This document shows positions 4,169 through 43,556 of a DNA stretch of 47,475 nt, in pieces (position 1 is the first letter of the stretch; the number at the start of each line of letters is the position of its first letter). The stretch spans positions 1-47,475 of the forward strand of contig JAAYYI010000125.1 in NCBI GenBank assembly GCA_012515445.1. Reading direction: 5' to 3'. The DNA comes from Candidatus Bathyarchaeota archaeon. Lineage in GTDB: Archaea > Thermoproteota > Bathyarchaeia > Bathyarchaeales > Bathycorpusculaceae. The notes beneath the pieces were generated by a model, which searched no databases, was not told where the DNA came from, and saw only the letters and a program-made list of their open reading frames with translations. The position numbers were made by a program, and so were the translations under genes.

Positions 4169-4549
4169 ATGAGCATAGTCAGCCTATCAATCCCAAAACC
4201 GCTACTGGAAAAAGTCGACAGCTACCTAAAAGAGCAAGGCTACGCAAACCGCTCCGAAGTCCTACGCCAAGCACTCCGCAGCTACATATCCGAAGCCAAA
4301 CGACTAGACGAACTCAAAGGCACAGTCGCAGCCACAATAACTATCATCTACCAGAAGGGCGCAAGCACAAGAGACGACAGCCAACACCACAGCAGCAACG
4401 TCGTGTTAACCTTCCTGCACACCCACATAGAGGAAGGCTACTGCATCGAAGTCATCATAGCAAAAGGCGAAGCACACCTCATGAAGGCGTTTATTGAGTC
4501 GCTGCGAGCCAACAAGCAGGTGTCTGAAGTTAAAGTAACCATATTATAA
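4169..4549 (+). CDS. nikR: NikR-type nickel-responsive regulator (ribbon-helix-helix)
   Basis: This DNA-binding repressor has 126 residues. An N-terminal CopG-type ribbon-helix-helix (SIVSLSIPKPLLEKVDSYL, residues 2-45) is followed by an ACT-like metal-binding domain. His73, His84, His86 and Cys92 reproduce the spacing of the four nickel ligands of E. coli NikR (His76, His87, His89, Cys95), so nickel sensing is well supported. The ATG at 4169 is preferred over 4145: the protein then starts directly at the first beta-strand, and the TATA-like CTTATATCC is about 30 bases upstream, which suggests a near-leaderless transcript. It is divergent from the ZIP gene and probably represses both when nickel is sufficient. 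Confidence 0.9.
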   Translation: MSIVSLSIPKPLLEKVDSYLKEQGYANRSEVLRQALRSYISEAKRLDELKGTVAATITIIYQKGASTRDDSQHHSSNVVLTFLHTHIEEGYCIEVIIAKGEAHLMKAFIESLRANKQVSEVKVTIL

Positions 4550-4558
4550 ACAAGCGAT

Positions 4559-4598
4559 AGGTCAACTGCGATTTTTCTCTATACCCCTCTTATTTTAA
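4559..4598 (+). repeat. Dispersed 3'-end-like element, copy B
   Basis: It begins ten bases after the nikR stop codon and reads GTCAACTGCGATTTTTCTCT, then ATACCCC, then TCTTATTTT. It shares this order with the copies at 174-210 (-) and 31683-31716 (-). The T5 and T4 runs in the sense direction fit an archaeal transcription terminator for nikR. Confidence 0.6.
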
Positions 4599-4939
4599 GC
4601 GGATATGATTCTGTCGGCGAAAACTAGACTAGACCTACCAGTCTCAAAAGCACATCCCCTCCCTACCTAACGAAAAACCATACCCTAGGATACCTCTCAC
4701 ATGGTTCGAGATTCGTCTACTATAAGGTATAACGGTTAGCGGCGCTGTTGAACACTGCTTAACGCCTCATGAAGTGCTTGGAGCGCATGCCAGCTTTGCG
4801 ATAGATGTCACAGTCAATTTCTGTTCAAAAATTCTCACAATCCGCACTAAACCCATTATGTAGCGTTCGTTAACTTGGCATTAAGTAACCTACCAACCAC
4901 TAACTCTGTTTTAACGATAATTTACAGAATAGAATTTGT
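4599..4939. other. Intergenic region, no gene seen
   Basis: This is mixed sequence without a convincing frame on either strand. On the minus strand 4651-4676 has a G-rich stretch (GGGAGGGGAT, then GAGACTGGTAGG) loosely resembling the repeats at 12231-12256 and 31438-31470. Nothing else is recognised before the tRNA. Confidence 0.4.
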
Positions 4940-5027
4940 TGGTGCGGAGGGTGGGATTTGAACCCACGAACCCCTGCGGGATAAGAGCCTCAGTCTTACG
5001 CCTTTGGCCATGCTGGGCGACCTCCGC
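4940..5027 (-). tRNA. tRNA-Leu (anticodon GAG)
   Basis: Read on the minus strand, the acceptor stem is GCGGAGG/CCTCCGC. The D arm contains GCCCAGCATGGCCAAAGGC and the anticodon stem is TAAGA/TCTTA around loop CTGAGGC, giving anticodon GAG. A long variable arm (CCCGCAGGGG) marks it as class II, and the T arm is GTGGG-TTCAAAT-CCCAC. The CCA tail is encoded (4940-4942) after discriminator A. No intron is present. It reads CUC/CUU leucine codons. Confidence 0.96.
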
Positions 5028-5107
5028 GCACGTGTAGCGGAAATATAGGACAAGGGCACATTTAAAGCCTTTACCGTAAAAAACGTGGGGAAAGACGAAA
5101 GAGCGCC

Positions 5108-5701
5108 TTAAGTGCCATTGCGGCTGAGTAGGAAATAGCCGTATTCTGCTAGCAGGTTGGGGAGCAAGCGGATTTTTCGGTTATTGGATTTATAGAAGAC
5201 GGCGTTGTTGGCGATGTTCTTGTTTTTGGTGTAGTCTTTGAAGTCGTTTAGGCTTAGGAAGTGCAGGTTGGGTGTGTCGTACCACTGGTAGGGCAGTGAG
5301 GGCGTGACTGGGACTCGGCCGCGGAAGAAGATGCTGGCGCGGGCTTTGTAGTGGGCAAAGTTTGGGATGCCGACGATGACTTTTTTGCCTACGCGGAGCG
5401 CCTCCTGTAGGACGAAGTCGGGTTTTTTCACCTGCTGGAGCGTCTGGTTTAGGATAACGTAGTCGAATGATTTGTCACGGTACTCAGAAAGCCCCGTGTC
5501 GATGTCCTGCTGGTAGACGCTTAAGCCTGCGTTGATACATCGGACTATGGCGTCTTCGTTTAGTTCGATGCCCTGCGCACGCACCTGTTTCGTCCGGGTG
5601 AGGTAAGCTAATAGTTCTCCGTCGCCGCAACCCAAATCCAGCACTGAAGCGCCCTGCGTTATCCAATCTGCAATGCCTTTATTGCCAACTTTATTTGCCA
5701 T
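5108..5701 (-). CDS. metW: MetW-like SAM-dependent methyltransferase
   Basis: This cytosolic Rossmann methyltransferase has 197 residues. VLDLGCGDGELLAYL is motif I, and IELNEDAIVRC carries the acidic residue that binds the SAM ribose. FDYVILNQTLQQVKKPDFVL and the C-terminal HFLSLNDFKDY stretch are typical of MetW. MetW is normally encoded next to metX and is needed with it for homoserine O-acetylation in many bacteria. Here its ATG lies one base after the metX stop, with GGAGG of the metX end as ribosome site. It is therefore the last gene of a met17-metX-metW operon. Methyl transfer by MetW has not been clearly established for the family. Confidence 0.9.
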   Translation of the reverse strand: MANKVGNKGIADWITQGASVLDLGCGDGELLAYLTRTKQVRAQGIELNEDAIVRCINAGLSVYQQDIDTGLSEYRDKSFDYVILNQTLQQVKKPDFVLQEALRVGKKVIVGIPNFAHYKARASIFFRGRVPVTPSLPYQWYDTPNLHFLSLNDFKDYTKNKNIANNAVFYKSNNRKIRLLPNLLAEYGYFLLSRNGT

Positions 5702-5702
5702 G

Positions 5703-6788
5703 TTATGAGCCTCCGTTGCTTAGGCTTCGAAGGAAGCTGCTAATGAGTCGTCCTTCTTGTTCTGTTTCGACAAGGAAAGAGTCGTGGCCGTAGGTGGCGT
5801 TTATTTCGCAGTAGCTTGCATCGACGCCTGATAGCTTGCAGGCTTTCACTATCTCCTGCGACTGGGAGGCGGGGTAGAGCCAGTCTGATTTGAAAGCGAT
5901 AACTAGCACTTTCGCTTTGAGACCGCTAAAGATGCTTCCGAGGCTGTGTCCGTTTAAGAGGTTGAAGTAGTCGATGGCTTTGGTTATGTAGAGATAGCTG
6001 TTTGCGTCGAAGCGTTTGACGAAGCTGTCGCCTCTGTGGTGGAGGTAGCCTTCGACTTCGAAGTCTGCGCCGAACTTGGGGGCGCAGTCGGCTCTGAATC
6101 TGCGTCCGAACTTCTCAGCCATTGAGGTGTCGCTCATGTAGGTTATGTGGCCGATCATTCTGGCTATTGCTAAGCCTTTGGCTGGGCCGGCTGAGTCGTA
6201 GTAGTTGCCGTTTTGCCAGTCGGGGTCAGCCATTATTGCTTGGCGTCCGACTTCATTAAATGCGATCTGCTGCGGCGTATGCTTGAGTGTCGTTGCAATC
6301 GGAATAGCCGAACGGATACGGTTTTGGTAAGCAGCCATCCACTGCAGCACCTGCATGCCGCCCATTGAGCCGCCGACGATTGAAAGCAACCGCTCGATGC
6401 CAAGGTGGTCGATTAGGTGGCGCTGCGCATTAACCATGTCACCGATGGTCACTATTGGAAAATCGGTTCCATAGGGCTTCCCAGTTTTAGGGTTAGTTGA
6501 GGATGGACCTATGGAGCCTTGGCAGCCGCCGACGACGTTACTGCAAATGACAAAGTACTTGTCTGTGTCGATGCCTTTGCCGCCTCCGACGATGCCGTTC
6601 CACCAGCCGCCTTCGCCTGAGACATGCGCGTCGCCGCTAAACGCATGCGCTATCAGTATCGCGTTGGATTTTTCGGCGTTTAGCGTGCCGTAGGTCTCAT
6701 ATGCAAGCGTGACAGGTGATAGTTTTTCGCCTGACTCCAACGTTAGCTCGCTGAAGGTGAACTGATGGGTTTCTTTATTTGAGATTAG
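5703..6788 (-). CDS. metX: Homoserine O-acetyltransferase (alpha/beta hydrolase)
   Basis: MetX acylates homoserine to start methionine synthesis; the product goes to the sulfhydrylase encoded upstream. The alpha/beta-hydrolase nucleophile Ser is in GGSMGG, Asp is in SDWLYP and His in [23 protein letters not shown] and GRQAIM are family blocks. The first canonical start in frame is a TTG at 6740, which would remove the first conserved strand ([14 protein letters not shown]). That strand is encoded upstream in frame, after a GGAGG at 6797-6801. No ATG, GTG or TTG lies between; CTA at 6786-6788 sits eight bases after GGAGG, and ATC follows it. I extend to 6788 as a likely unusual start. A sequence error is the alternative. 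Acetyl- versus succinyl-donor use cannot be read from sequence here. Confidence 0.85.
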
Positions 6789-6820
6789 TCTTGTTTCCTC
6801 CTGACAAAAAATAAAGGGGT

Positions 6821-8116
6821 TTATTGCTGTGAGGCTTTTAGCGCCTGATCTAAGTCTGCGATTATGTCCTCTGCATCTTCTATACCGATGGATAATCGGA
6901 TGAAGTCAGCTGTTACGCCTGTTGCTTTCTGCTCTTGCTCTGTTAGCTGCTGATGTGTTGTCGAAGCTGGGTGGATAATTAGGCTCTTAGCATCACCAAT
7001 GTTCGCAAGGTGCGAGAACAGCTTGACGTTTCGGATTACTTTTTTACCTGCTTCCAAGCCGCCTTTGACGCCGAAACCAACTAATCCACCGTATTGGCCC
7101 TGCAGGTACTTCTCGGCTGTTTTGTGGTTGGGGTTGCTTGGCAGGCCCGGATATGTTACCCAGTTGACGAGCGGGTGGCTGCTTAGGTACTCTGCGACTT
7201 TCTGTGCGTTTTCGCTGTGTTTGCGTTGGCGAAGCGGTAGGGTTTCTAGTCCCTGTATGAATAGCCAAGCGTTAAATGGACTCAGCGTGGGCCCGACGTC
7301 TCGCCCAAGCTGGACGCGTGCTTTGAAGACTAACGCTACGTTGCCCAAACCGGGGAAGTTGCCGAATGCCTCCCAGTATTTGACTCCATGGTAGGCTGGG
7401 TCTGGTTCTGTGAATTCTGGGAATTTGCCGTTATTCCAGTTGAATTTGCCGCTGTCAACGATGGCGCCGCCTAAGCTTGAGCCGTTTCCGGCGACGTATT
7501 TGGTTGCGGAGAGGACGACTATGTCTGCGCCATACTCGATGGGTGCAACTATGCCGACGCCCACAGTGTTATCCACGACAAATGGAATACCTGCGTCGTG
7601 CGCTATTGCAGCTAAGGCTTCGAAGTCGGGTACATCCAGTTTGGGGTTGCCGATGGTTTCAGCGTATACCGCGCGGGTTTTGCCGGTTATGGCTTTTTTG
7701 AATTCTTCTGGCTTTTGTGAGTCAACGAATTTTACTGTTCTTCCCAGTTTAGGGAAGGTGTAGTGGAACAGTTCGTAGGTACCGCCGTAGAGGTTGTTTG
7801 CCGCTACGATTTCGTCGCCGACCTGTGTTAATGTTAAGAGTGCGAGTGAGATAGCTGCTTGGCCAGAGGCGACTGCGAGTGCGCCTGTGCCGCCTTCGAT
7901 TGCTGCAATGCGGCGTTCAAAAACGTCGGTAGTCGGGTTCATTAAGCGAGTGTAAATGTTGCCGAGTTCTTTTAAGCCAAACAGGTTCGCTGCGTGCTCG
8001 GGGCTTTTGAATACGTATGAGGCTGTTTGGTAGATTGGGACAGAGCGGGCGCCGGTTGCTGGGTCAGGTGATTCTTGGCCGGCGTGTACGGCGATTGTCG
8101 CTAATTTTTTTGGCAT
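6821..8116 (-). CDS. metY: O-acetylhomoserine sulfhydrylase (PLP enzyme)
   Basis: This fold-type I PLP enzyme has 431 residues, the usual length for MET17/MetY, which condenses O-acetylhomoserine with sulfide to homocysteine. The N-terminus has [20 protein letters not shown]. Next come [22 protein letters not shown]-type residues, [10 protein letters not shown] for phosphate binding, DNTVGVG with the pyridine-nitrogen Asp, and [15 protein letters not shown] with the PLP lysine. The enzyme works in the cytosol with MetX. The ATG has AAAGGAG upstream. A palindrome at 8160-8173 overlaps its TATA region and is shared with cysK and the XRE-CBS gene. Cystathionine gamma-synthase is less likely given the length and the large insertion. 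Confidence 0.92.
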
Positions 8117-8159
8117 TTATGGTTGTGCTCCTTTTGATTTTTATTCAAACAAGCATTCG

Positions 8160-8173
8160 ATAACGGCGTTATA
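8160..8173 (-). promoter_or_regulatory. Predicted Cys/Met operator overlapping the metY TATA box
   Basis: On the minus strand it reads TATAACGCCGTTAT, a TAAC-N3-GTTA palindrome. It lies 45-57 bases before the metY ATG, so TBP binding here would give a leader of about 30 bases with the AAAGGAG site. The same motif precedes cysK and the regulator gene. Confidence 0.6.
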
Positions 8174-8278
8174 ACCGTTCTTGATTGTAATATTCCAAAA
8201 AGAATAGCATCCATCAAAAACTTTCAAATAGGAATATCGAAAGATCGAAAAATCAGAAAACAATAGGGGACCAAATTA

Positions 8279-9328
8279 CTAGGGAGTGTGGTTCTCTGTC
8301 TTGTAATTCTGCTCCGGCTGTGCAATAGTAATCTTCGTACCCGGCGCCACAGGACCAGTAACCCAAACGTTACCGCCGATAACCGAGTTGTCACCGACAA
8401 CCGTCTCCGCACCCAGCAGCGTTGCGCCCGAGTAGATAACCACGTTGTTGCCGATGGTTGGGTGACGTTTGCGGCCTTTAATGATGTTACCCTTCTCGTC
8501 CTTAGGGAAGCTAAGCGCGCCCAAAGTGACTCCCTGATATAGTTTAACGTTGTCGCCGATTTCCGCGGTTTCGCCGATGACGACACCTGTGCCGTGGTCT
8601 ATGAAGAAGTTTTTGCCGATTTTTGCGCCCGGATGAATGTCTATGCCTGTTAATGCATGCATGTGCTCGCTCATTATGCGGGGAATAAGCGGCACGCCTG
8701 CAACATAGAGCTCATGCGCCAAGCGGTAGGTGGTTATGGCGAGTATGCATGGGTAGCTGAGGATGACTTCGTCGGTGCTGACTGCTGCGGGGTCGCCCTC
8801 GTATGCTGCCTGAACGTCGCCGCTGAGAGTAGTTCTGATTTCTGGAAGCTTCTCTAGCAGTTCACGCACAACTATATGAGCACGTTTCTCGCAGATATCC
8901 TCGGGGCATTCGCTTATTTTTCTGCAGATGTACTTTAGGCTCTTAGCAGTTTCCTCGGTAAGCCTACTATAGATCGAGTTTAGTTTGCTGCCTAAATTGA
9001 ATCCTATGTTTGCTTTTGTAAGTTCAGAATCTCCCAAATATCCTGGGAATAGAACTGCGAATAGGTCTTCTAGGACGTCTATGACGACTTTTTTAGAGGG
9101 TAAGTCGCGGCCTTCAAGGTGGTTCATGCCGCCGTATTTCTCGTAGCTGACCAGCATGTCATCTACTAGCTGCGGTATTCCTTTTAGAACCCAGTCTTGC
9201 TCGACGTTGTGGTTGTTGCGCATAAGTGTGTCTAGCATGCGGTCTGGATTCCAGCAATCAATGTCCTTGTTTTTTTCTAGGCATTCTTTGCAGTTTTTTG
9301 GGCGAGACTGGTTTGCTTTAGTCGTCAT
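8279..9328 (-). CDS. cysE: Serine O-acetyltransferase
   Basis: The enzyme makes O-acetylserine for cysteine synthesis. It has 349 residues, with a long alpha-helical N-terminal part and a C-terminal left-handed beta-helix of hexapeptide repeats. [37 protein letters not shown] is the diagnostic block, split here only by reading: the catalytic His is in FIDHGTG and the CoA-binding repeats follow. The N-terminus has a Cys cluster ([15 protein letters not shown]). The length is closer to the plant/SrpH-like serine acetyltransferases than to the 270-residue E. coli enzyme. It lies 73 bases after cysK on the same strand and may be cotranscribed. A TATA-like CTTATATTA at about 9362-9371 could also serve it. 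The ATG has AAAGGGAC upstream. Confidence 0.9.
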
Positions 9329-9401
9329 GTCCGGGTCCCTTTCCCAAAGTATTGTTGGGGGGTAATATAAGAGAAGCGTAATAAAACAATTAAAAAGGAG
9401 T

Positions 9402-10346
9402 TTAGATTGTCGGCGGCGGTGTTGGCTCGGTAAACAGTACTGTGCTTAGGTAGCGTTCCCCAGTGTCAGGCAGTATAACAACGATCACTTTGCCCTTGTT
9501 CTCCGGTCGCTTGGCAACCTGTAGTGCTGCATAGGTTGCGGCGCCTGCAGAGATACCCACAAGCAAACCCTCCTGTTTCGCCAGTTCCCTTGCGGTTTTA
9601 AGCGCATCATCGTCTGTAACTTGAATGACTTCGTCAACTACACCCATTTGAAGAATATCCGGCTTGAATCCTGCACCGATACCCTGAATCTTGTGTGGAC
9701 CCTTCTTTCCACCGCTCAGTACCGGCGAAGCTGCGGGCTCAACTGCTACAGCTCTGAAAGAGGGCTTTTTGGATTTAATGTATGCTGAGACGCCGGTTAT
9801 TGTTCCGCCTGTTCCGACACCTGCAACGAGTATGTCAACTGTGCCGTCGGTGTCTTCCCAGATTTCCGGTCCGGTGGTTTCACGGTGGACTTTTGGGTTT
9901 GCGAGGTTTTTGAATTGCTGGGGCATGAAGCTGCCGGGGGTGGCTGCTATGAGTTGTTCAGCTTTTTTGATTGCGCCGCCCATGCCGTCTGGTCCGGGGG
10001 TGAGGACTAGTTGTGCGCCGTATGCTTTGAGTAGGTTGCGGCGCTCTACGCTCATGGTTTCTGGCATTGTTAGGATTAGTTTGTAGCCTTTTACGGCTAC
10101 TGCCATGGCTAGTCCTATGCCGGTGTTGCCTGATGTGGGTTCGATGAGTGTTGCTCCGGGTTTTAGGATGCCTTGTTTTTCGGCTTCTTCTATCATGGCT
10201 TTGCAGATGCGGTCTTTAACTGATCCGCCTGGGTTTTTGGATTCGAGTTTGCCTATGACTGTGGCGTTTGTGCCTTCAGTTAGTTTGTTTAAGCGTATTA
10301 GTGGTGTTTTTCCGATTGTTTCTAGTACATTGTTGTTTATTTTCAT
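9402..10346 (-). CDS. cysK: Cysteine synthase (O-acetylserine sulfhydrylase)
   Basis: This PLP fold-type II enzyme has 314 residues and makes cysteine from O-acetylserine and sulfide. [11 protein letters not shown] holds the PLP lysine, [12 protein letters not shown] is the substrate loop, [10 protein letters not shown] binds the PLP phosphate and KIQGIGAGF is the C-terminal family block. The ATG at 10346 starts directly at [16 protein letters not shown]; the longer frame to 10367 would add seven unrelated residues and run through the operator. The TATAAC of the palindrome at 10361-10374 is about 28 bases upstream, so the transcript may be nearly leaderless. cysE follows on the same strand, so acetylation and sulfhydrylation are coupled. 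Confidence 0.94.
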
Positions 10347-10360
10347 GTAAACCACTTTCC

Positions 10361-10374
10361 ATAACACCGTTATA
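10361..10374 (-). promoter_or_regulatory. Predicted Cys/Met operator overlapping the cysK TATA box
   Basis: On the minus strand it reads TATAACGGTGTTAT. It is exactly 15 bases before the cysK ATG, the same spacing as the copy before the XRE-CBS gene. This position would block TBP binding. Confidence 0.62.
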
Positions 10375-10466
10375 ATTAGTTGCTTAAAGCCTTATTGGTG
10401 CCCCAATAACAGAAAATCAAGAAGCACCAAACAACACATAAGGAAAACAAACTAAAAAATAATCGC

Positions 10467-11021
10467 TTAGAGAATCCTCAGCAAATCCGCCTTCGTAATA
10501 ATACCAATAACAACGCCTTTCTTAGAAACCAAAACAGCAGAATAATTCTGCAAAAGACTCGTAATCAACGACAAAGGCGCATCATCATTAATCTGAGGAA
10601 AAGCCTCCTCCATAATTCTCTCTGTGGGTTGCCTAGAAATCTCCTCCAAATCCTTGCCATCCAAAATAAGGCGAAGAATCGCTTTCTCCGACACACTGCC
10701 CACGGATTGTTTACCATCAAAGACAGGTATCTGGGAGTAACCGTGGTCCTTCATGATTTTTACTACTTCAGAGATAGGTTGGCTTCTCTGGACGCTTACT
10801 ACGTCGGTGTGTACTAGTTTTTCTGCTTGGACTTTTGATTTGAATTCTAGTCGTTCGAGGACGTCGAAGATTGTTTTTACTTTGGTGTAGGATGAGTCTA
10901 TGGTTCCGGCTTCTAGTTTGGCGATTAGGGATTGGCTTACGCCCGCGGCTTTGGCGAGTTCTGACTGTTTTAGGCCTAGTTGTCTTCTTCGTTTGCCTAT
11001 GTCCTCTAATGTGGGAAACAT
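10467..11021 (-). CDS. XRE-HTH / CBS-pair transcriptional regulator
   Basis: The protein has 184 residues in two parts. Residues 5-60 are an XRE helix-turn-helix (RRRQLGLKQSELAKAAGVSQ, then SLIAKLEAGTIDSSYTKV). Residues 65-184 are two CBS motifs (VVSVQRSQPISEVVKIMKDH and PLSLITSLLQNYSAVLVSKK). CBS pairs commonly bind adenosyl ligands such as SAM, AMP or ATP. The gene adjoins the cys/met genes, and its own promoter carries the same TAAC-N3-GTTA palindrome as cysK and metY. I infer that it represses these units, possibly with SAM as ligand. The ATG at 11021 is 15 bases after the palindrome. No experimental evidence for the ligand is visible. Confidence 0.88.
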   Translation of the reverse strand: MFPTLEDIGKRRRQLGLKQSELAKAAGVSQSLIAKLEAGTIDSSYTKVKTIFDVLERLEFKSKVQAEKLVHTDVVSVQRSQPISEVVKIMKDHGYSQIPVFDGKQSVGSVSEKAILRLILDGKDLEEISRQPTERIMEEAFPQINDDAPLSLITSLLQNYSAVLVSKKGVVIGIITKADLLRIL

Positions 11022-11036
11022 AACCCAAATGTTAGT

Positions 11037-11049
11037 TAACGCTGTTATA
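11037..11049 (-). promoter_or_regulatory. Predicted Cys/Met operator before the XRE-CBS gene
   Basis: On the minus strand it reads TATAACAGCGTTA, 15 bases before the ATG. It would allow autoregulation. A weaker relative, TAAGCGTGTTATA, is at 11134-11146 before the divergent HTH gene. Confidence 0.6.
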
Positions 11050-11163
11050 TATTCTTTTAGGAATAGACTGCGTTAAACCGCAAAAAGACAAAAACGCAAA
11101 AAACAGCTGCAGATTCAAAACGACTTATAAGTATAAGCGTGTTATAGTGGAAACGATGTACCA

Positions 11164-11523
11164 ATGGATCCACAATGCGAAATAATCGGCAAATACGTCC
11201 TACCTATATTCCGTTCAATGCTAGCAAAAGAACTCGTACAGAACTACAAACTCTCACAAACCGAAGCAGCCAAAAAACTCGGAACCACCCAAGCAGCAGT
11301 CAGCCAGTACCTTAGCTCAAAACGCGCCTACAAAGGCTATAAACATGTAGAGCAGTATCTCCCAAAAATCCAGGCGATGGCGTCAGAGACCGCCCGAAAG
11401 TTAGCCAATAAAGAGATCGAAGCAGACGAAATAACACCTGACTTCTGCAGCCTTTGCGTTACCTTCTGCGTTAGGAAGGAACATGAAGTGCCTGAATCCG
11501 AGAAACCGGATTATTACATTTAG
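11164..11523 (+). CDS. COG2522-type HTH regulator with C-terminal Cys cluster
   Basis: This is an archaeal transcription regulator of 119 residues. Residues 20-60 form a helix-turn-helix (LVQNYKLSQTEAAKKLGTTQ, then AAVSQYLSSKRA). The C-terminus has FCSLCVTFC, a CxxCxxxC cluster, with one more Cys at position 5. Such a cluster could bind an Fe-S centre or zinc; which one cannot be read from the sequence. The gene is divergent from the XRE-CBS gene across 142 bases. Its promoter region contains TTATA at 11142-11146 and a degenerate version of the Cys/Met palindrome. A role in sulfur or redox control is plausible from context only. Confidence 0.8.
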   Translation: MDPQCEIIGKYVLPIFRSMLAKELVQNYKLSQTEAAKKLGTTQAAVSQYLSSKRAYKGYKHVEQYLPKIQAMASETARKLANKEIEADEITPDFCSLCVTFCVRKEHEVPESEKPDYYI

Positions 11524-11559
11524 CGCCTTTCATTTTTCGCTGGCTTAAGCGTGCTTTGG

Positions 11560-12123
11560 TTAAGTTGGTTTATTGGATGCTAGCTGACTGATTTCTAGAT
11601 AAATTTCATTCCAGCTGTAAACCCGCTTAGTAAGATTCTTCACGTTTAAGGATTGGTTATATGGGTGATCGTAAACCAGCACTGTTTTAACTCTAGATGA
11701 CCACTCAAGCGCTTCCTCAAGTGAATCCTCAACGATCACATCTAACCCTTCAATGTTAGCCTGATACTTTTTACCCATCTCAAGCAGATGCAGTTCATCG
11801 TATGGTACGCCATTGTCTTTTAGCCATGTCTGCGTCAGTTCCCTTAGAGGCGCATATCTGCCTGTTAAGAGGTAGATGCTGTGGCCTTCTCTGCTTAGCC
11901 GCTCAAGGGTTTCTTTAGCCTCAGGATAAATCGGCAGGTCCTTGTACAGGATGTCGGTTATAAGCCGAGCTTCCTCGGCGCGGGTTATTCCTAAAACGAC
12001 GCTTAAGCTGAAGCTAGTAATGTCTTTTTCCGTGAGTGTTAAGCCGTATGCTTGTTTGATTGTTTGAAGTAGTACGTCGGTAAAGTTGGCGATTACGCCA
12101 TCGATGTCAAAGCCCAGTTTCAT
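11560..12123 (-). CDS. HAD-family 5'(3')-nucleotidase-like phosphatase
   Basis: This is a soluble HAD hydrolase of 187 residues. GFDIDGVIANF is motif I with both catalytic Asp residues. YLLTGRYAP is motif II with Thr, the Lys of motif III lies in MGKKYQ, and VIVEDSLEEALEW is motif IV. The layout matches the NT5C/YorS group of deoxyribonucleotidase-like enzymes, so dephosphorylation of a nucleotide or a small phosphate ester is likely, but the substrate is unknown. I chose the ATG at 12123 because the protein then opens with MKLGFDIDG; a TTG at 12153 is the longer option. It stands alone on its strand. Confidence 0.8.
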   Translation of the reverse strand: MKLGFDIDGVIANFTDVLLQTIKQAYGLTLTEKDITSFSLSVVLGITRAEEARLITDILYKDLPIYPEAKETLERLSREGHSIYLLTGRYAPLRELTQTWLKDNGVPYDELHLLEMGKKYQANIEGLDVIVEDSLEEALEWSSRVKTVLVYDHPYNQSLNVKNLTKRVYSWNEIYLEISQLASNKPT

Positions 12124-12230
12124 CCAGAGGTTGCTTCCTGTCTTATCTATCAAGTTATACCATCTACAACGCTTATCGGTAAAAGTGTTCCTAAAGGAAC
12201 CAACACTTTAGCGAGATAAACCAGCCTACT

Positions 12231-12256
12231 CCTACCTCTCAGTGACCTCCCCCTCC
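12231..12256 (-). repeat. G-rich dispersed repeat, copy in leader region
   Basis: On the minus strand it reads AAGGGAGGGGGAGGTCACT, then GAGAGGTAGG. It matches 31438-31470 (+) apart from two 2-base gaps. The role is unknown; the core resembles a ribosome-binding sequence, but no start codon follows. Confidence 0.55.
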
Positions 12257-12326
12257 CTTCCTGAAGCAGCTTGTATATGTGGATAGACGCTGATGCCTTG
12301 ACTATATTCCAACTATTAGCTTCGGG

Positions 12327-12345
12327 TTAGTCAAGAAAGCTTGAC
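12327..12345 (+). promoter_or_regulatory. TTAGTCAAG palindromic element upstream of a beta-helix gene
   Basis: TTAGTCAAG (12327-12335) overlaps the inverted repeat GTCAAG-AAAG-CTTGAC (12330-12345). The 12-mer TTAGTCAAGAAA recurs upstream of the other beta-helix surface gene at 28894-28905. The start codon is 52 bases downstream. Confidence 0.45.
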
Positions 12346-12396
12346 GAAAACACCTATAATCCATCAACTAATAACACCAAAAAAGGAATGGCACTT

Positions 12397-13344
12397 ATGG
12401 TGAGTAAACGAATAAAATTAACGTTTATTCTAATATTGCTTTCAGCATTAACTATAATAGCTATTCCAGCGAAGTCACAGACAACTGGCAATATAATAAT
12501 CGGCTCTGATGGCTCTGTTACAGGAACAACAGCCATTACTCAAAACAGCAGCACCTATACTTTAACCGAAAACACTACTGGAAAAATTACAGTCGAGAAA
12601 AGCAACATTGTTATCGATGGAGCAGGATACGCCATCAATGGGGCAGGAATAGACTTTCCCACATCGTCTGCTCGAGAAGAACTAATTTATAATGTCACAA
12701 TCCGCAACCTGATAATCAGCACTGGAAGAATATTCGCAAACGGCGGCGGATATCACACATTCTATAACAATTACATATATGGACTCGAGCTATGGGGGAC
12801 GGAGTACAACAACATCACCCATTGCACCATAGCAAGTATTAATCTGAATTACGGAGGAAGTCATAGCACCATAACTGAAAATAACATAATAAACGGTTTA
12901 ACAGCTTTCTTGGCTTCTAACGTAACAGTAGATAGAAACTATTGGAGATTTTATCTAACAAGATATCCCAATGCAACGGAAATAGGAAATACAGGAATAG
13001 GCAACCAACCCTATGTGTTAGAATCAAGCACGCCTGTTATCAGTCCGGATTATCATCCGCTGATGAAGCCCATATCAATTCCGTTGACAGGTTCAATTAC
13101 TGAATTTCCAACATCAACGCCTGCTCCGACAGACAATCCCAGTTCAATAGGGACACCTACTCCCGCAAGAACGCCCAGTCCAACATCTGCGGCTTCAGCT
13201 ACTTCAAGCCCCATAGAGACGCCAAGCTCAACACCATATACAATAGAGTCTCCGTTCCCGCCATTAGTAGCGGTCTTAGCGGTAATTATTGCATTAACAG
13301 CCGCTGTGTTGATAGCAAGAAAACGAAAAATACAGAGAAAATGA
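12397..13344 (+). CDS. Anchored surface protein with right-handed beta-helix
   Basis: This protein of 315 residues probably sits on the cell surface. An N-terminal signal segment (LTFILILLSALTIIAIPA) is followed by a beta-helix-like region with repeated short strands and Asn turns (NIVIDGAGYAINGAG, NVTIRNLIIS), as in NosD/pectate-lyase-fold proteins. Residues about 235-280 are a Thr/Ser/Pro-rich stalk (TPAPTDNPSS, TPARTPSPT), and the end is a membrane helix with a basic tail (IARKRKIQRK). Many NxT/S sites suggest N-glycosylation. Start: ATG 12397 has AAGGA nine bases upstream; ATG 12388 is too close to it. A larger relative lies at 28951-30717. Ligand and partner are unknown. Confidence 0.85.
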   Translation: MVSKRIKLTFILILLSALTIIAIPAKSQTTGNIIIGSDGSVTGTTAITQNSSTYTLTENTTGKITVEKSNIVIDGAGYAINGAGIDFPTSSAREELIYNVTIRNLIISTGRIFANGGGYHTFYNNYIYGLELWGTEYNNITHCTIASINLNYGGSHSTITENNIINGLTAFLASNVTVDRNYWRFYLTRYPNATEIGNTGIGNQPYVLESSTPVISPDYHPLMKPISIPLTGSITEFPTSTPAPTDNPSSIGTPTPARTPSPTSAASATSSPIETPSSTPYTIESPFPPLVAVLAVIIALTAAVLIARKRKIQRK

Positions 13345-13448
13345 AGCACACCCTTTCACAGCCACTAGCTTAATTTTCCATCTGTAGCGTTGACAACATA
13401 ATTTTTTTAAAATAACTGAAGTAAATTAAAAAAAAGATACGAGTTGCC

Positions 13449-13892
13449 CTATAGCAGGCGGAAGTTCTCTTTAACCGTAGTCAACACAACATGCGTGTTG
13501 GTACGCTCAATGTAGGGTAAAGCAAGCATCTTCTTCGTAAACGCGCCAAGGTCTTCACGGTTCTTGAATTTAGCGATTATAACAGCGTCAGTTAAGCCAG
13601 TTACGTCATAGACGCCGCAAACGTTTGGAATCTTTGCGATCTCGTTTTCTGTCTCGACTAGGCGGCCTTTGGAAACGGTGATTTCGGTAACTACAGTCAG
13701 CTGGTAGCCTAGTTTCTCGTGGTCGAGTATAACTGAGTAGCCTTTGATTAGGCCATCTTCCTCCATCTTTTTTATTCTGGACAGAACTGTACCGACTGAT
13801 ACGCCGACGTTTTTGGCGATTTGGCGGCTTGAGAATCTAGCGTCCTCTAGGAGACCTTGGAGAATCTTTACATCGGTGTCGTTTAATTCCAT
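13449..13892 (-). CDS. Lrp/AsnC-family transcriptional regulator
   Basis: The protein has 147 residues. The N-terminal winged HTH is MELNDTDVKILQGLLEDARF followed by SSRQIAKNVGVSVGTVLSRI. The C-terminal RAM/ACT-like effector domain has TEITVSKGRLVETENEI and VYDVTGLTDAVIIAKF, the usual dimerisation and ligand fold. Members sense amino acids and form octamers. The ATG at 13892 gives the standard N-terminus and has AGGAAA upstream; a TTG at 13919 would add a non-conserved tail. It is divergent from guaA across 209 bases, but control of guaA is only a possibility. The ligand is not predictable from sequence. Confidence 0.92.
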   Translation of the reverse strand: MELNDTDVKILQGLLEDARFSSRQIAKNVGVSVGTVLSRIKKMEEDGLIKGYSVILDHEKLGYQLTVVTEITVSKGRLVETENEIAKIPNVCGVYDVTGLTDAVIIAKFKNREDLGAFTKKMLALPYIERTNTHVVLTTVKENFRLL

Positions 13893-14101
13893 GCTAATGT
13901 TTCCTGCACGTTCTTTCAATATATGCCTGTTTTATAAAACATGCTTCTCATAATCACTCGGGTTAGTTTATAAAAGTTTAGTTTTTTCACGCGAACTCAA
14001 CACAGGTTTTTAGAACAACAATACATATGCGTATTGGTTTTCTGCCAAAAAAAGAGAGCAATCTTAAATTAACCCCAAAACGCCATAGTCCCTGAGCCAA
14101 C

Positions 14102-40958: not shown

Positions 40959-41588
40959 GTGCTCACCCAATTCAAGAAAAAAATCCAAGAAATGCTCCAA
41001 ACCGAAGCAAAAATCGCTCACAAACTAGGACTTACACCCAACAGCATAAGCGTGATCGGCTTCATACTCGCAATCGCGTCCGCAGTCAGCTACGCCTTGA
41101 CTTCTACGGATTCACTTTGGCTGCCGTTATTAGCGGTTTTCTTTATGCTGGCTTCCGGCTTCTGCGACACAATGGACGGCATAGTAGCGCGCACCTTTAA
41201 GCAGACTTCAGCTTTCGGCGGATTCTTCGATTCAGTACTGGACCGCTTCGCTGATGGAGCTTCATATGCGGGCATAATCGTTGCCGGTTTGTGTGCTGCT
41301 GCATTTGGCGGCTACTGGGGCACCATAACTGCGTTAACTGCGTTACTTGCGTCAATGCTGGTCAGCTATACACGTGCAAGAGCTGAGGTTATAGGCGTGA
41401 AAATGGAGTCGGTCGGTATCGCGGAACGTGCGGAGCGTATGCTGATTCTGGCGGCTGCAAGCATAATCGGTTACTTCTATTTGCCTGCTCTAGGATACGG
41501 AGTAGCATTGATCGCCGTGTTATCGATTGTAACGGTTCTACAAAGAGTCTGGCACGTTTATAGGGAATTAAAGAAAAATAAGCAGTAA
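40959..41588 (+). CDS. CDP-alcohol phosphatidyltransferase (archaetidylinositol-P synthase type)
   Basis: This membrane enzyme has 209 residues and about five membrane helices. The motif DTMDGIVARTFKQTSAFGGF followed by FDSVLDRFADG matches D-x2-D-G-x2-A-R-x8-G-x3-D-x3-D, where Asp residues bind two metals. It joins CDP-archaeol with inositol phosphate or a related alcohol to make polar membrane lipids. The N-terminal helix (TEAKIAHKLGLTPNSISVIG) is typical of archaeal members. The start is GTG at 40959. The gene converges on eS26 with only seven bases between stops, inside a palindromic hairpin. Confidence 0.88.
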   Translation: MLTQFKKKIQEMLQTEAKIAHKLGLTPNSISVIGFILAIASAVSYALTSTDSLWLPLLAVFFMLASGFCDTMDGIVARTFKQTSAFGGFFDSVLDRFADGASYAGIIVAGLCAAAFGGYWGTITALTALLASMLVSYTRARAEVIGVKMESVGIAERAERMLILAAASIIGYFYLPALGYGVALIAVLSIVTVLQRVWHVYRELKKNKQ

Positions 41589-42825: not shown

Positions 42826-42977
42826 TAAAATGTTCCTCTGCCCTCAAGGGGATATTCTAGGGCAGCCATATAAAGTTAGATATGGCGACGTACCCCTCTA
42901 AGCAACTCTTAAATCATGCGTTTCTTTTAATTGTTCCCGTAGAAGCAAGCCTATCTGAATTGTCTGAGGTAACTTTC

Positions 42978-43556
42978 ATGTCTGAAATCGGTTTAAGAAC
43001 AAAAATGCTGGTACGCGACATAATGAGCAGCCCTGTCGTCACAATAGACGAGGATGAAGCAACCAACCGTGCAGCAGCCAACATGGATATGAAGGAGTTA
43101 GGCGCCGTCATCGTCCAGAACAAAGCTGGAAAATCAATCGGCATCATCACCGAACGCGACCTAGTAAAACGTGTAGTCGCCAAAAACCTCAAACCGGACA
43201 CTGTTAAAGCAAAAGAAATCATGACTACACCACTCGTCACAATCGAGCCGGAAGCCACCATAACCGACGCTGCACGAAGAATGACGCGGCTTGACATCAG
43301 AAGACTTGGAGTAGTATACAAGGGTAGCCTAGTTGGAATCGTCTCAAGCAAAGACGTCTTAGGCGTCATGCCGGAACTGCTTGAGATCTATCAGGAGCGC
43401 TCAAGAATAGAGGGCGCCAGCCTAGAAGACGAAACCGAAGAAGCACCGCTTTCAGGCTACTGCGACCGATGCAACACCTACTCAGATACGCTTAAAGAGC
43501 GCAACGGACAGAACATCTGCGAAGAATGCAGAGTAGAACTTGAAACGGAAAAGTAG
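42978..43556 (+). CDS. CBS-pair protein with C-terminal zinc ribbon
   Basis: This soluble protein has 192 residues. Two CBS motifs (MSSPVVTIDEDEATNRAAAN and MTTPLVTIEPEATITDAARR) form a Bateman module, where adenosyl nucleotides usually bind. The C-terminal region YCDRCNTYSDTLKERNGQNI, then CEECRVELE, is a C-x2-C...C-x2-C zinc ribbon. Proteins of this kind are common and poorly studied in archaea. The ATG at 42978 has GAGGT upstream; the frame to 42882 would add an unrelated tail. It stands between a DUF4438 gene and a small membrane ORF, with no obvious pathway link. Confidence 0.88.
   Translation: MSEIGLRTKMLVRDIMSSPVVTIDEDEATNRAAANMDMKELGAVIVQNKAGKSIGIITERDLVKRVVAKNLKPDTVKAKEIMTTPLVTIEPEATITDAARRMTRLDIRRLGVVYKGSLVGIVSSKDVLGVMPELLEIYQERSRIEGASLEDETEEAPLSGYCDRCNTYSDTLKERNGQNICEECRVELETEK

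Follow-up and report, generated by a model that had tools for sequence, protein, structure and literature searches.

Helix-turn-helix (HTH) regulators that sense metabolites and control methionine and S-adenosylmethionine (SAM) genes are known from bacteria, as are others that control sulfur genes; CysB and CymR are bacterial regulators of sulfur assimilation. Control of methionine and SAM genes by SAM is also exerted by SAM riboswitches, and paired CBS domains (Bateman modules) serve as sensors, among them MJ0100 and the regulatory domain of human cystathionine beta-synthase. To our knowledge, the control of methionine, SAM and cysteine synthesis in archaea is poorly described. MetJ is the SAM-dependent methionine repressor of gammaproteobacteria (see also PMC4239095). 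We analyzed a stretch of 47,475 nucleotides (hereafter, the window; positions 1 to 47,475 of contig JAAYYI010000125.1, assembly GCA_012515445.1) from a Candidatus Bathyarchaeota archaeon with a genome of 2.44 Mb in 127 contigs, and in particular the divergent genes of two small XRE-type proteins, one combining an HTH with two CBS domains (XRE-CBS, 184 aa) and the other having 119 residues and three conserved cysteines (HTH119). Two palindromes are found at the promoters of this locus: M1 (TATAAC-N3-GTTA; fuller form TATAAC-N3-GTTATA) and M2 (TATTCC-N4-RGAATA), the latter seen in the sequences upstream of XRE-CBS orthologues. Both motifs, their conservation, positions and spacing, the neighboring genes and the co-occurrence with each regulator were observed directly. 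Judging from these patterns, the arrangement is probably one of two regulators and two operators, in which XRE-CBS would act on M2, HTH119 would act on M1, and the metYXW unit would read both. The sites and the two candidate regulator genes are the following:

8161..8173, minus strand: M1 site of the metY promoter, matching TATAACNNNGTTA, kept in 23/23 metY loci
10362..10374, minus strand: M1 site of the cysK-cysE promoter, matching TATAACNNNGTTA
11037..11049, minus strand: M1 site of the XRE-CBS promoter, 15 nt from the ATG, matching TATAACNNNGTTA
11132..11146, plus strand: degenerate M1-like site TATAAGCGTGTTATA before HTH119, seen in the sequence
11050..11065, unstranded: M2 palindrome of the XRE-CBS promoter, reading TATTCCTAAAAGAATA on the minus strand
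8191..8206, unstranded: M2 palindrome upstream of metY, its center 32.5 bp from the M1 center
10467..11021, minus strand: XRE-CBS regulator gene, 184 aa, HTH_3 and two CBS domains
11164..11523, plus strand: HTH119 gene, 119 aa, XRE type (HTH_3, 24.5 bits), three conserved cysteines; the candidate for binding M1

The initial annotation of this DNA had reported the three minus-strand copies of TATAACNNNGTTA and a gap of 15 bases to the ATG of cysK and XRE-CBS; the copies were found where it placed them, and the gap, measured from the 11-base palindrome, was confirmed for both genes (11022-11036 for XRE-CBS). It had overlooked M2 at both positions, the HTH119 gene and the degenerate site in front of it. 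At metY, 44 bases separate the M1 palindrome from the ATG. There are six matches to TAACNNNGTTA in the window versus 0.82 expected, and none of 100 shuffles reached six. Three of the six are the promoters. The other three were rejected as operators because they lie inside open reading frames (ORFs): one at 840-850 in the ORF 553-2505 (PAS/kinase-like by eye), and two that overlap at 41326-41345, within an ORF for a CDP-alcohol phosphatidyltransferase. The sequence at the latter position, TAACTGCGTTAACTGCGTTA, is a tandem repeat in coding sequence that matches M1 twice. The whole genome contains seven exact copies of TATAACNNNGTTA, three of them in the window, versus three copies of the control pattern. 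Among metY and cysK loci of relatives, in stretches fetched mostly for containing XRE-CBS, M1 is present at every one of the 23 metY loci and at 12 of the 15 cysK-type loci; thus, conservation near cys/met genes, which the initial annotation had proposed as a check, was found. In view of the window count compared to shuffles, of the genome count and of this conservation, chance was rejected as an explanation of M1. The motif is nearly absent upstream of cysE (0/9) and metX (1/23), as expected because these genes are located inside transcription units. From its position, M1 plausibly coincides with the TATA box; if so, the cysK and XRE-CBS transcripts are probably leaderless, because the palindrome stops 15 bases from the ATG.

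The conserved site at XRE-CBS genes is M2. Orthologues scoring at least 130 bits were detected in 106 genomes, and 98 were fetched as loci (omitted: G000, G005, G045, G050, G052, G075, G139 and G240); L048 and L067, with less than 60 nt upstream, were dropped, leaving 96 loci, and the paralogues L254 and L255 were treated separately. Of the 96 Bathyarchaeia orthologues, 55 have a perfect M2 in the 150 nt upstream of the gene and 78 an M2 with at most one mismatch, versus dinucleotide-shuffle means of 0.03 and 0.2, and in 76 of the 78 it lies 23-35 nt before the start. By genome family (f1, f4, f10, etc.; the window genome belongs to f1), M2 with at most one mismatch occurs in 29/29 loci of f1, 9/9 of f4, 18/18 of f10, 2/2 of f12, 2/2 of f13, 1/1 of f26 and 17/23 of f27. 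Of the 11 f10 genomes searched, seven have a doubled M2, with copies 25-28 bp apart; HTH119 was not detected in this family, which also shows no M1 enrichment. M1 within the same 150 nt is seen in 18/29 f1 loci and in 0/67 of the remaining families, and most of the f1 sites belong to the divergent metY. A start-proximal M1 at the XRE-CBS promoter was found, among the loci compared, in the window and in G106 only, and there it would tie the two regulators together.

M2 was also found outside Bathyarchaeia. The cross-archaeal set comprised 80 loci out of 464 XRE-CBS relatives, including 23 non-Bathyarchaeia loci with a full upstream region, after exclusion of Bathyarchaeota-titled records, L401, L423 and L454, as well as L445 and L468, in which the upstream region is too short. 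Among these listed loci, M2 is perfect in 11/23 and has at most one mismatch in 15/23 (shuffle means, 0 and 0.07). The positive records are titled Culexmicrobium, Methanocellales, Micrarchaeota (three of four), Aenigmatarchaeota, Pacearchaeota, Nanohalarchaeota, Diapherotrites, Thermoproteota and Thaumarchaeota; M2 with at most one mismatch was not found in 8 of the 23 (Micrarchaeota, Altiarchaeales, Heimdallarchaeota, Nitrososphaerota, Sysuiplasma, Euryarchaeota, Methylarchaceae and Methanoplasma). It should be noted that these lineage names are titles of metagenome bins and may be wrong. Only 9 and 1 nt separate M2 from the presumed start at L437 and L439, respectively.

The distribution of M1 follows HTH119. 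Homologues of HTH119 (E <= 1e-12) occur in 125 of the 256 genomes of the class, and 69 genes from these genomes were examined (L338 equals L154 and was counted once); 40 of the regions were hand-chosen, four of them with M1 already seen nearby (G030, G031, G035 and G043). The site TATAACNNNGTTATA, with at most one mismatch, was detected within 100 nt upstream of 54 of the 69 genes, in 46 of them at 13-18 nt before the start, while shuffles of the two sets yielded 0.1 of 30 and 0.02 of 40. The core TAAC-N3-GTTA is intact in 14/14 loci of f4 and in 6/9 of f15. M1 has 743 hits on both strands, versus 202 for the reversed control pattern, in the 91 genomes whose HTH119 match reaches E <= 1e-17; the corresponding numbers for the 165 genomes without such a match are 206 and 229. 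Among 58 M1-rich genomes (excess of at least 4), HTH119 is present in 49 (odds ratio 20) and XRE-CBS in 34 (odds ratio 2.5), with G224 and G225 scored as weak HTH119.

The initial annotation had assigned TAAC-N3-GTTA to XRE-CBS, so that a single protein would bind M1 and run the whole Cys/Met regulon. The presence of M1 at all three window promoters, that of XRE-CBS included, and the adjacency of XRE-CBS to M1-bearing genes in f1 agree with such an assignment. The families, however, dissociate M1 from XRE-CBS: in f10, XRE-CBS is found in 19/21 genomes, HTH119 in none, and M1 has 1 hit versus 6 for the control; in f27, XRE-CBS is found in 24/27 genomes and M1 has 28 hits versus 35 (the two families pooled, 43/48 genomes and 29 versus 41). 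Conversely, f21 has no XRE-CBS orthologue (weaker paralogue-level matches in 4/7 genomes) and 74 M1 hits versus 7, and in f15 there are 114 M1 hits versus 33. Because of this dissociation in f10, f27 and f21, the conservation of M2 rather than M1 at XRE-CBS genes, and the far stronger association of M1 excess with HTH119, we rejected XRE-CBS as the owner of M1 and consider the single-protein explanation very improbable. The initial annotation was right in counting XRE-CBS among the components of the circuit.

The other sites of M2 point toward SAM synthesis. A search of the window genome with TATTCCNNNNRGAATA returned three perfect M2 sites and no control hit: at XRE-CBS, at metY, and between metK (bacterial-type SAM synthetase) and a RidA-family gene. 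The description of the locus as self-contained is thus not supported, since M2 is also at metK and relatives have M1 before genes elsewhere in the genome. We surveyed 32 genomes for the archaeal SAM synthetase gene, which was found in 22, and the core of M2 lies within 200 nt upstream of it in 15 of the 22 (shuffle mean 0.03, maximum 1). Three of the 15 (G009, G015 and G027) had been seen previously, and SAM synthetase is divergent from XRE-CBS in G023 and G025-G028, so that in G025-G028 one site may serve both genes; without G009, G015 and these divergent cases the count is 9/15. The control consisted of 44 genomes lacking an XRE-CBS match, in which 17 SAM synthetase matches were found; 14 of these had enough upstream sequence to be scored (L487, L489 and L490, at contig edges, were omitted), and the M2 core was found in 1/14. 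Six of the 14 genes adjoin a weaker XRE-CBS-like paralogue. For the bacterial-type metK of f1, M2 with at most one mismatch occurs at 5/24 loci if the genome has XRE-CBS and at 0/6 if it lacks the regulator. SAM synthetase is a neighbor of XRE-CBS in f11, f12 and f13, and among the XRE-CBS relatives listed, a SAM synthetase of either type is in the fetched stretch of 11/27 loci (not directly adjacent in L436 and L459). In f10, M2 is located before the SAM synthetase gene of archaeal type, before a rhodanese gene (3-mercaptopyruvate sulfurtransferase-like) and before the gene of an unnamed membrane protein, the families of the latter two having been tested for L265 and L261 only; some further M2 sites have no clear target.

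Several M2 loci deserve separate mention. In f10, the rhodanese-type sulfurtransferase is found at L257, L258, L265 and L294, and the membrane protein (~470-610 aa) at L261, L295, L296 and L300. In two f12 genomes (L267 and L293), M2 lies 42 nt before a gene of HMG-CoA reductase type (family tested for L267), which was unexpected. In eight genomes (L378, L379, L476, L477, L479, L480, L481 and L486), an XRE-CBS paralogue with a short N-terminus neighbors the archaeal SAM synthetase; M2 was not found at these eight loci, and several have an ATATAT-rich sequence and a conserved ATAAC-N5-GTTAT beside the start. This paralogue may be a second regulator of SAM genes with a different operator.

The placement of M2 resembles that of MetJ sites, which are found at met genes, at the SAM synthetase gene and at the gene of the repressor itself; here, the predicted sites are at metY, metK and XRE-CBS, and SAM would be the likely signal in both cases. 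In contrast, MetJ is a ribbon-helix-helix protein acting on tandem MET boxes, whereas the archaeal XRE-CBS joins an XRE HTH to a CBS pair, has another operator, and contains no ribbon-helix-helix as judged from its domains and its model.

For M1, the genes downstream of the sites in G050, G086, G087 and G088 encode APS/PAPS reductase (cysH), a nitrite/sulfite reductase-type protein, cysK-/cysM-type proteins and cystathionine beta-synthase; TusA, DsrE-like, OsmC and ThiI-like proteins, MetY and HTH119 itself; and, among transport functions, NMT1-type and other substrate-binding proteins as well as permeases. Some ORFs downstream of M1 have no family or sulfur link (L190, L187, L176:2071-2856 and L177:4272-4736), and for some sites no ORF was found within reach downstream. 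Since the target genes are mostly sulfur-related, the M1 set reads as a cysteine and sulfur-acquisition regulon. Taken together, these four genomes carry the site before cysteine and sulfate-reduction genes, and the set is of the same kind as those of CysB and CymR (cysH, sulfite reductase, cysK, substrate-binding proteins and permeases); the difference is in the candidate regulator, HTH119, which is of XRE type, has 119 residues and conserves three cysteines. At L002:964-1513 of the window genome, M1 lies 5 nt upstream of what may be the start of an ECF riboflavin-type transporter S component.

The two motifs also occur jointly. Among all the loci fetched, we found 35 distinct contexts with M1 and M2 within ~80 bp of each other, and in 29 of them the distance is exactly 32.5 bp from center to center. 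Twenty-two of the 29 are at metY, mostly homologous promoters but including that of G050, far from XRE-CBS, and seven are at other promoters of G086, G087 and G088, including those of NMT1-type and PBP-type substrate-binding protein genes and of OsmC genes. Wherever a downstream gene was found, M1 is nearer the gene and M2 is the outer site. The distance corresponds to about three helical turns; therefore, both proteins may meet on the same face of the DNA. With M2 upstream of the M1/TATA element, i.e., where archaeal activators are known to bind, and kept at metY even away from XRE-CBS (the window and G050), XRE-CBS on M2 could be an activator at metY, with HTH119 on the TATA box as the repressor. 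We regard this division of roles as rather unlikely; at its own gene, M2 lies at about the BRE/TATA position, which suits repression.

In the arrangement that we favor, an XRE-CBS dimer would bind M2 (TATTCC-N4-RGAATA) beside or on the region of the TFB-recognition element (BRE) and TATA box of its own gene, with autorepression as the predicted outcome, and would also act on metYXW and on the SAM synthetase gene, both of which the same motif precedes. When SAM is plentiful, SAM synthetase and methionine synthesis would be turned down, making XRE-CBS a functional counterpart of MetJ. HTH119 would bind M1 over TATA boxes and, when reduced sulfur is sufficient, repress the genes of cysteine synthesis and sulfur acquisition, namely cysK-cysE in the window and cysH, sulfite reductase, tusA, dsrE-like and transporter genes in relatives; its likely signal would be reduced sulfur or the redox state, possibly sensed via its three cysteines. 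The metYXW unit, with both sites 32.5 bp apart, would read both signals. Binding, the sign of regulation, the ligands and the cooperation of the two proteins are predicted here from sequence patterns.

Both proteins match the XRE/HTH_3 family (XRE-CBS with 38.0 bits at a cut-off of 23), and XRE-CBS contains two CBS stretches (E = 3.3e-18), so that the XRE and CBS domains named in the initial annotation were confirmed by profile matches. The XRE-CBS model consists of an HTH and a CBS pair (predicted local distance difference test score, pLDDT, 86.9; predicted template modeling score, pTM, 0.62) and matches CBS-pair structures; its Foldseek neighbors include ST2348, the SAM-bound regulatory domain of human cystathionine beta-synthase, AcuB and DarB. 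In the second CBS domain, G173 and D179 are invariant and T176 nearly so in 30 sequences. XRE-CBS thus shares with known CBS-pair sensors the paired domains and the usual adenosine-site Thr/Asp (T176 and D179), and differs from them in that the pair is fused to a DNA-binding HTH. The CBS pair would most likely sense SAM or a related adenosyl compound. Alternatively, it could sense the energy charge (AMP/ADP/ATP) or a cyclic dinucleotide, considering that AMP-, ADP- and c-di-AMP-binding CBS proteins are among the close folds; we find this doubtful, as the targets are SAM synthetase and methionine genes and a SAM-bound domain is among the same folds. SAM or another adenosyl ligand had been proposed initially as controlling XRE-CBS; the link to SAM is strengthened because M2, the putative site of XRE-CBS itself, is at SAM synthetase genes. 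In HTH119, C5 and C95 are conserved in 69/69 and C98 in 67/69 homologues. No PDB sequence match at E <= 1 and no Pfam family beyond HTH_3 were found for HTH119, and its model is poor (pLDDT 69.4), with no Foldseek match at E <= 0.001.

Several observations weigh against two regulators with uniform regulons. M2 with at most one mismatch is absent from XRE-CBS loci of f11 (0/2), f15 (0/7) and f25 (0/3) and from 6/23 loci of f27; 7 of the 22 archaeal SAM synthetase loci lack the M2 core, and the absence of M2 from 19 of the 24 f1 metK loci with XRE-CBS counts against a uniform regulon. Conversely, G035 has M2 at SAM synthetase with no XRE-CBS detected, although its family otherwise has the regulator, and M2 also precedes genes with no clear SAM link (those of HMG-CoA reductase and the membrane protein). 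The modeled fold of XRE-CBS does not discriminate between SAM and nucleotides as the ligand. For M1, the four other exact sites of the window genome precede no obvious sulfur gene, f25 has an M1 excess (32 versus 3) with weak HTH119 matches alone, 3/9 HTH119 loci of f15 lack the site, and the association counts are over related genomes and are not independent events. Furthermore, HTH119 at E <= 1e-17 is missing from 9 of the 58 genomes rich in M1, and in f1 the site preceding HTH119 is degenerate, with the C of the left half lost in 19/20 loci (a second copy in G089 is intact). The latter two observations would be expected if M2 is the XRE-CBS site and M1 is owned by a third regulator that also controls HTH119. 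We consider a third regulator improbable, although less so than a single protein acting on M1: an M1-like site at 13-18 nt before the start in 46/69 homologues is the usual sign of autoregulation, and the M1 excess tracks HTH119 over 256 genomes.

The remaining genes of the locus, for which the identities given in the initial annotation hold by profile matches, are the following:

9402..10346, minus strand: cysK (TIGR01139, 465 bits)
8279..9328, minus strand: serine acetyltransferase, cysE/EpsC type (NF041874, 156.1 bits, cut-off 150; TIGR01172 below its cut-off)
6821..8116, minus strand: metY, O-acetylhomoserine/O-acetylserine sulfhydrylase (TIGR01326, 642.9 bits)
5703..6740, minus strand: metX, homoserine O-acetyltransferase (PRK00175, 493.9 bits using 5703-6800)
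5108..5701, minus strand: metW (TIGR02081, 231.1 bits)

Three units are on the minus strand (XRE-CBS, cysK-cysE and metY-metX-metW), and HTH119 is divergent from XRE-CBS on the plus strand. In the case of the serine acetyltransferase, the EpsC-type model alone passes its cut-off. The real start of metX is probably slightly upstream of 6740, as homology extends to ~6800. The position of metX and metW directly 3' of metY (5108-6800) in these archaea gives a bacterial-looking acetylhomoserine route. A second CBS-pair protein of the window (42882-43556) has a cysteine-rich C-terminus and no HTH match. SAM riboswitches resemble the predicted system in that methionine and SAM genes are controlled by SAM; however, an Rfam scan of window positions 4500-14000 found no SAM riboswitch, its sole match being a tRNA, and a known riboswitch was rejected as the controller.

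No account of either regulator or motif was found in a search of the open-access literature, nor did this search find anything for COG2522 and COG3620. Both proteins, their operators and the archaeal setting appear new. There is perhaps an even chance that XRE-CBS with TATTCC-N4-GGAATA represents an ancient regulator of SAM synthesis present in a large part of the archaea, including Methanocellales, several small-genome lineages and Bathyarchaeia, and kept when a bacterial-type SAM synthetase replaced the archaeal one; in Bathyarchaeia, it and an unrelated cysteine-bearing HTH protein would share a composite operator with a rigid spacing of 32.5 bp, one promoter reading both SAM and sulfur status.

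Now that both operators are defined and a set of target promoters and two small candidate proteins (119 and 184 residues) are at hand, the proposal can be tested by simple binding assays. In uncultured archaea, the motifs can serve as markers of SAM and sulfur regulons, and one of the two regulators is an apparent archaeal counterpart of the bacterial methionine/SAM repressor, with relatives that adjoin SAM-making genes in several other archaea.

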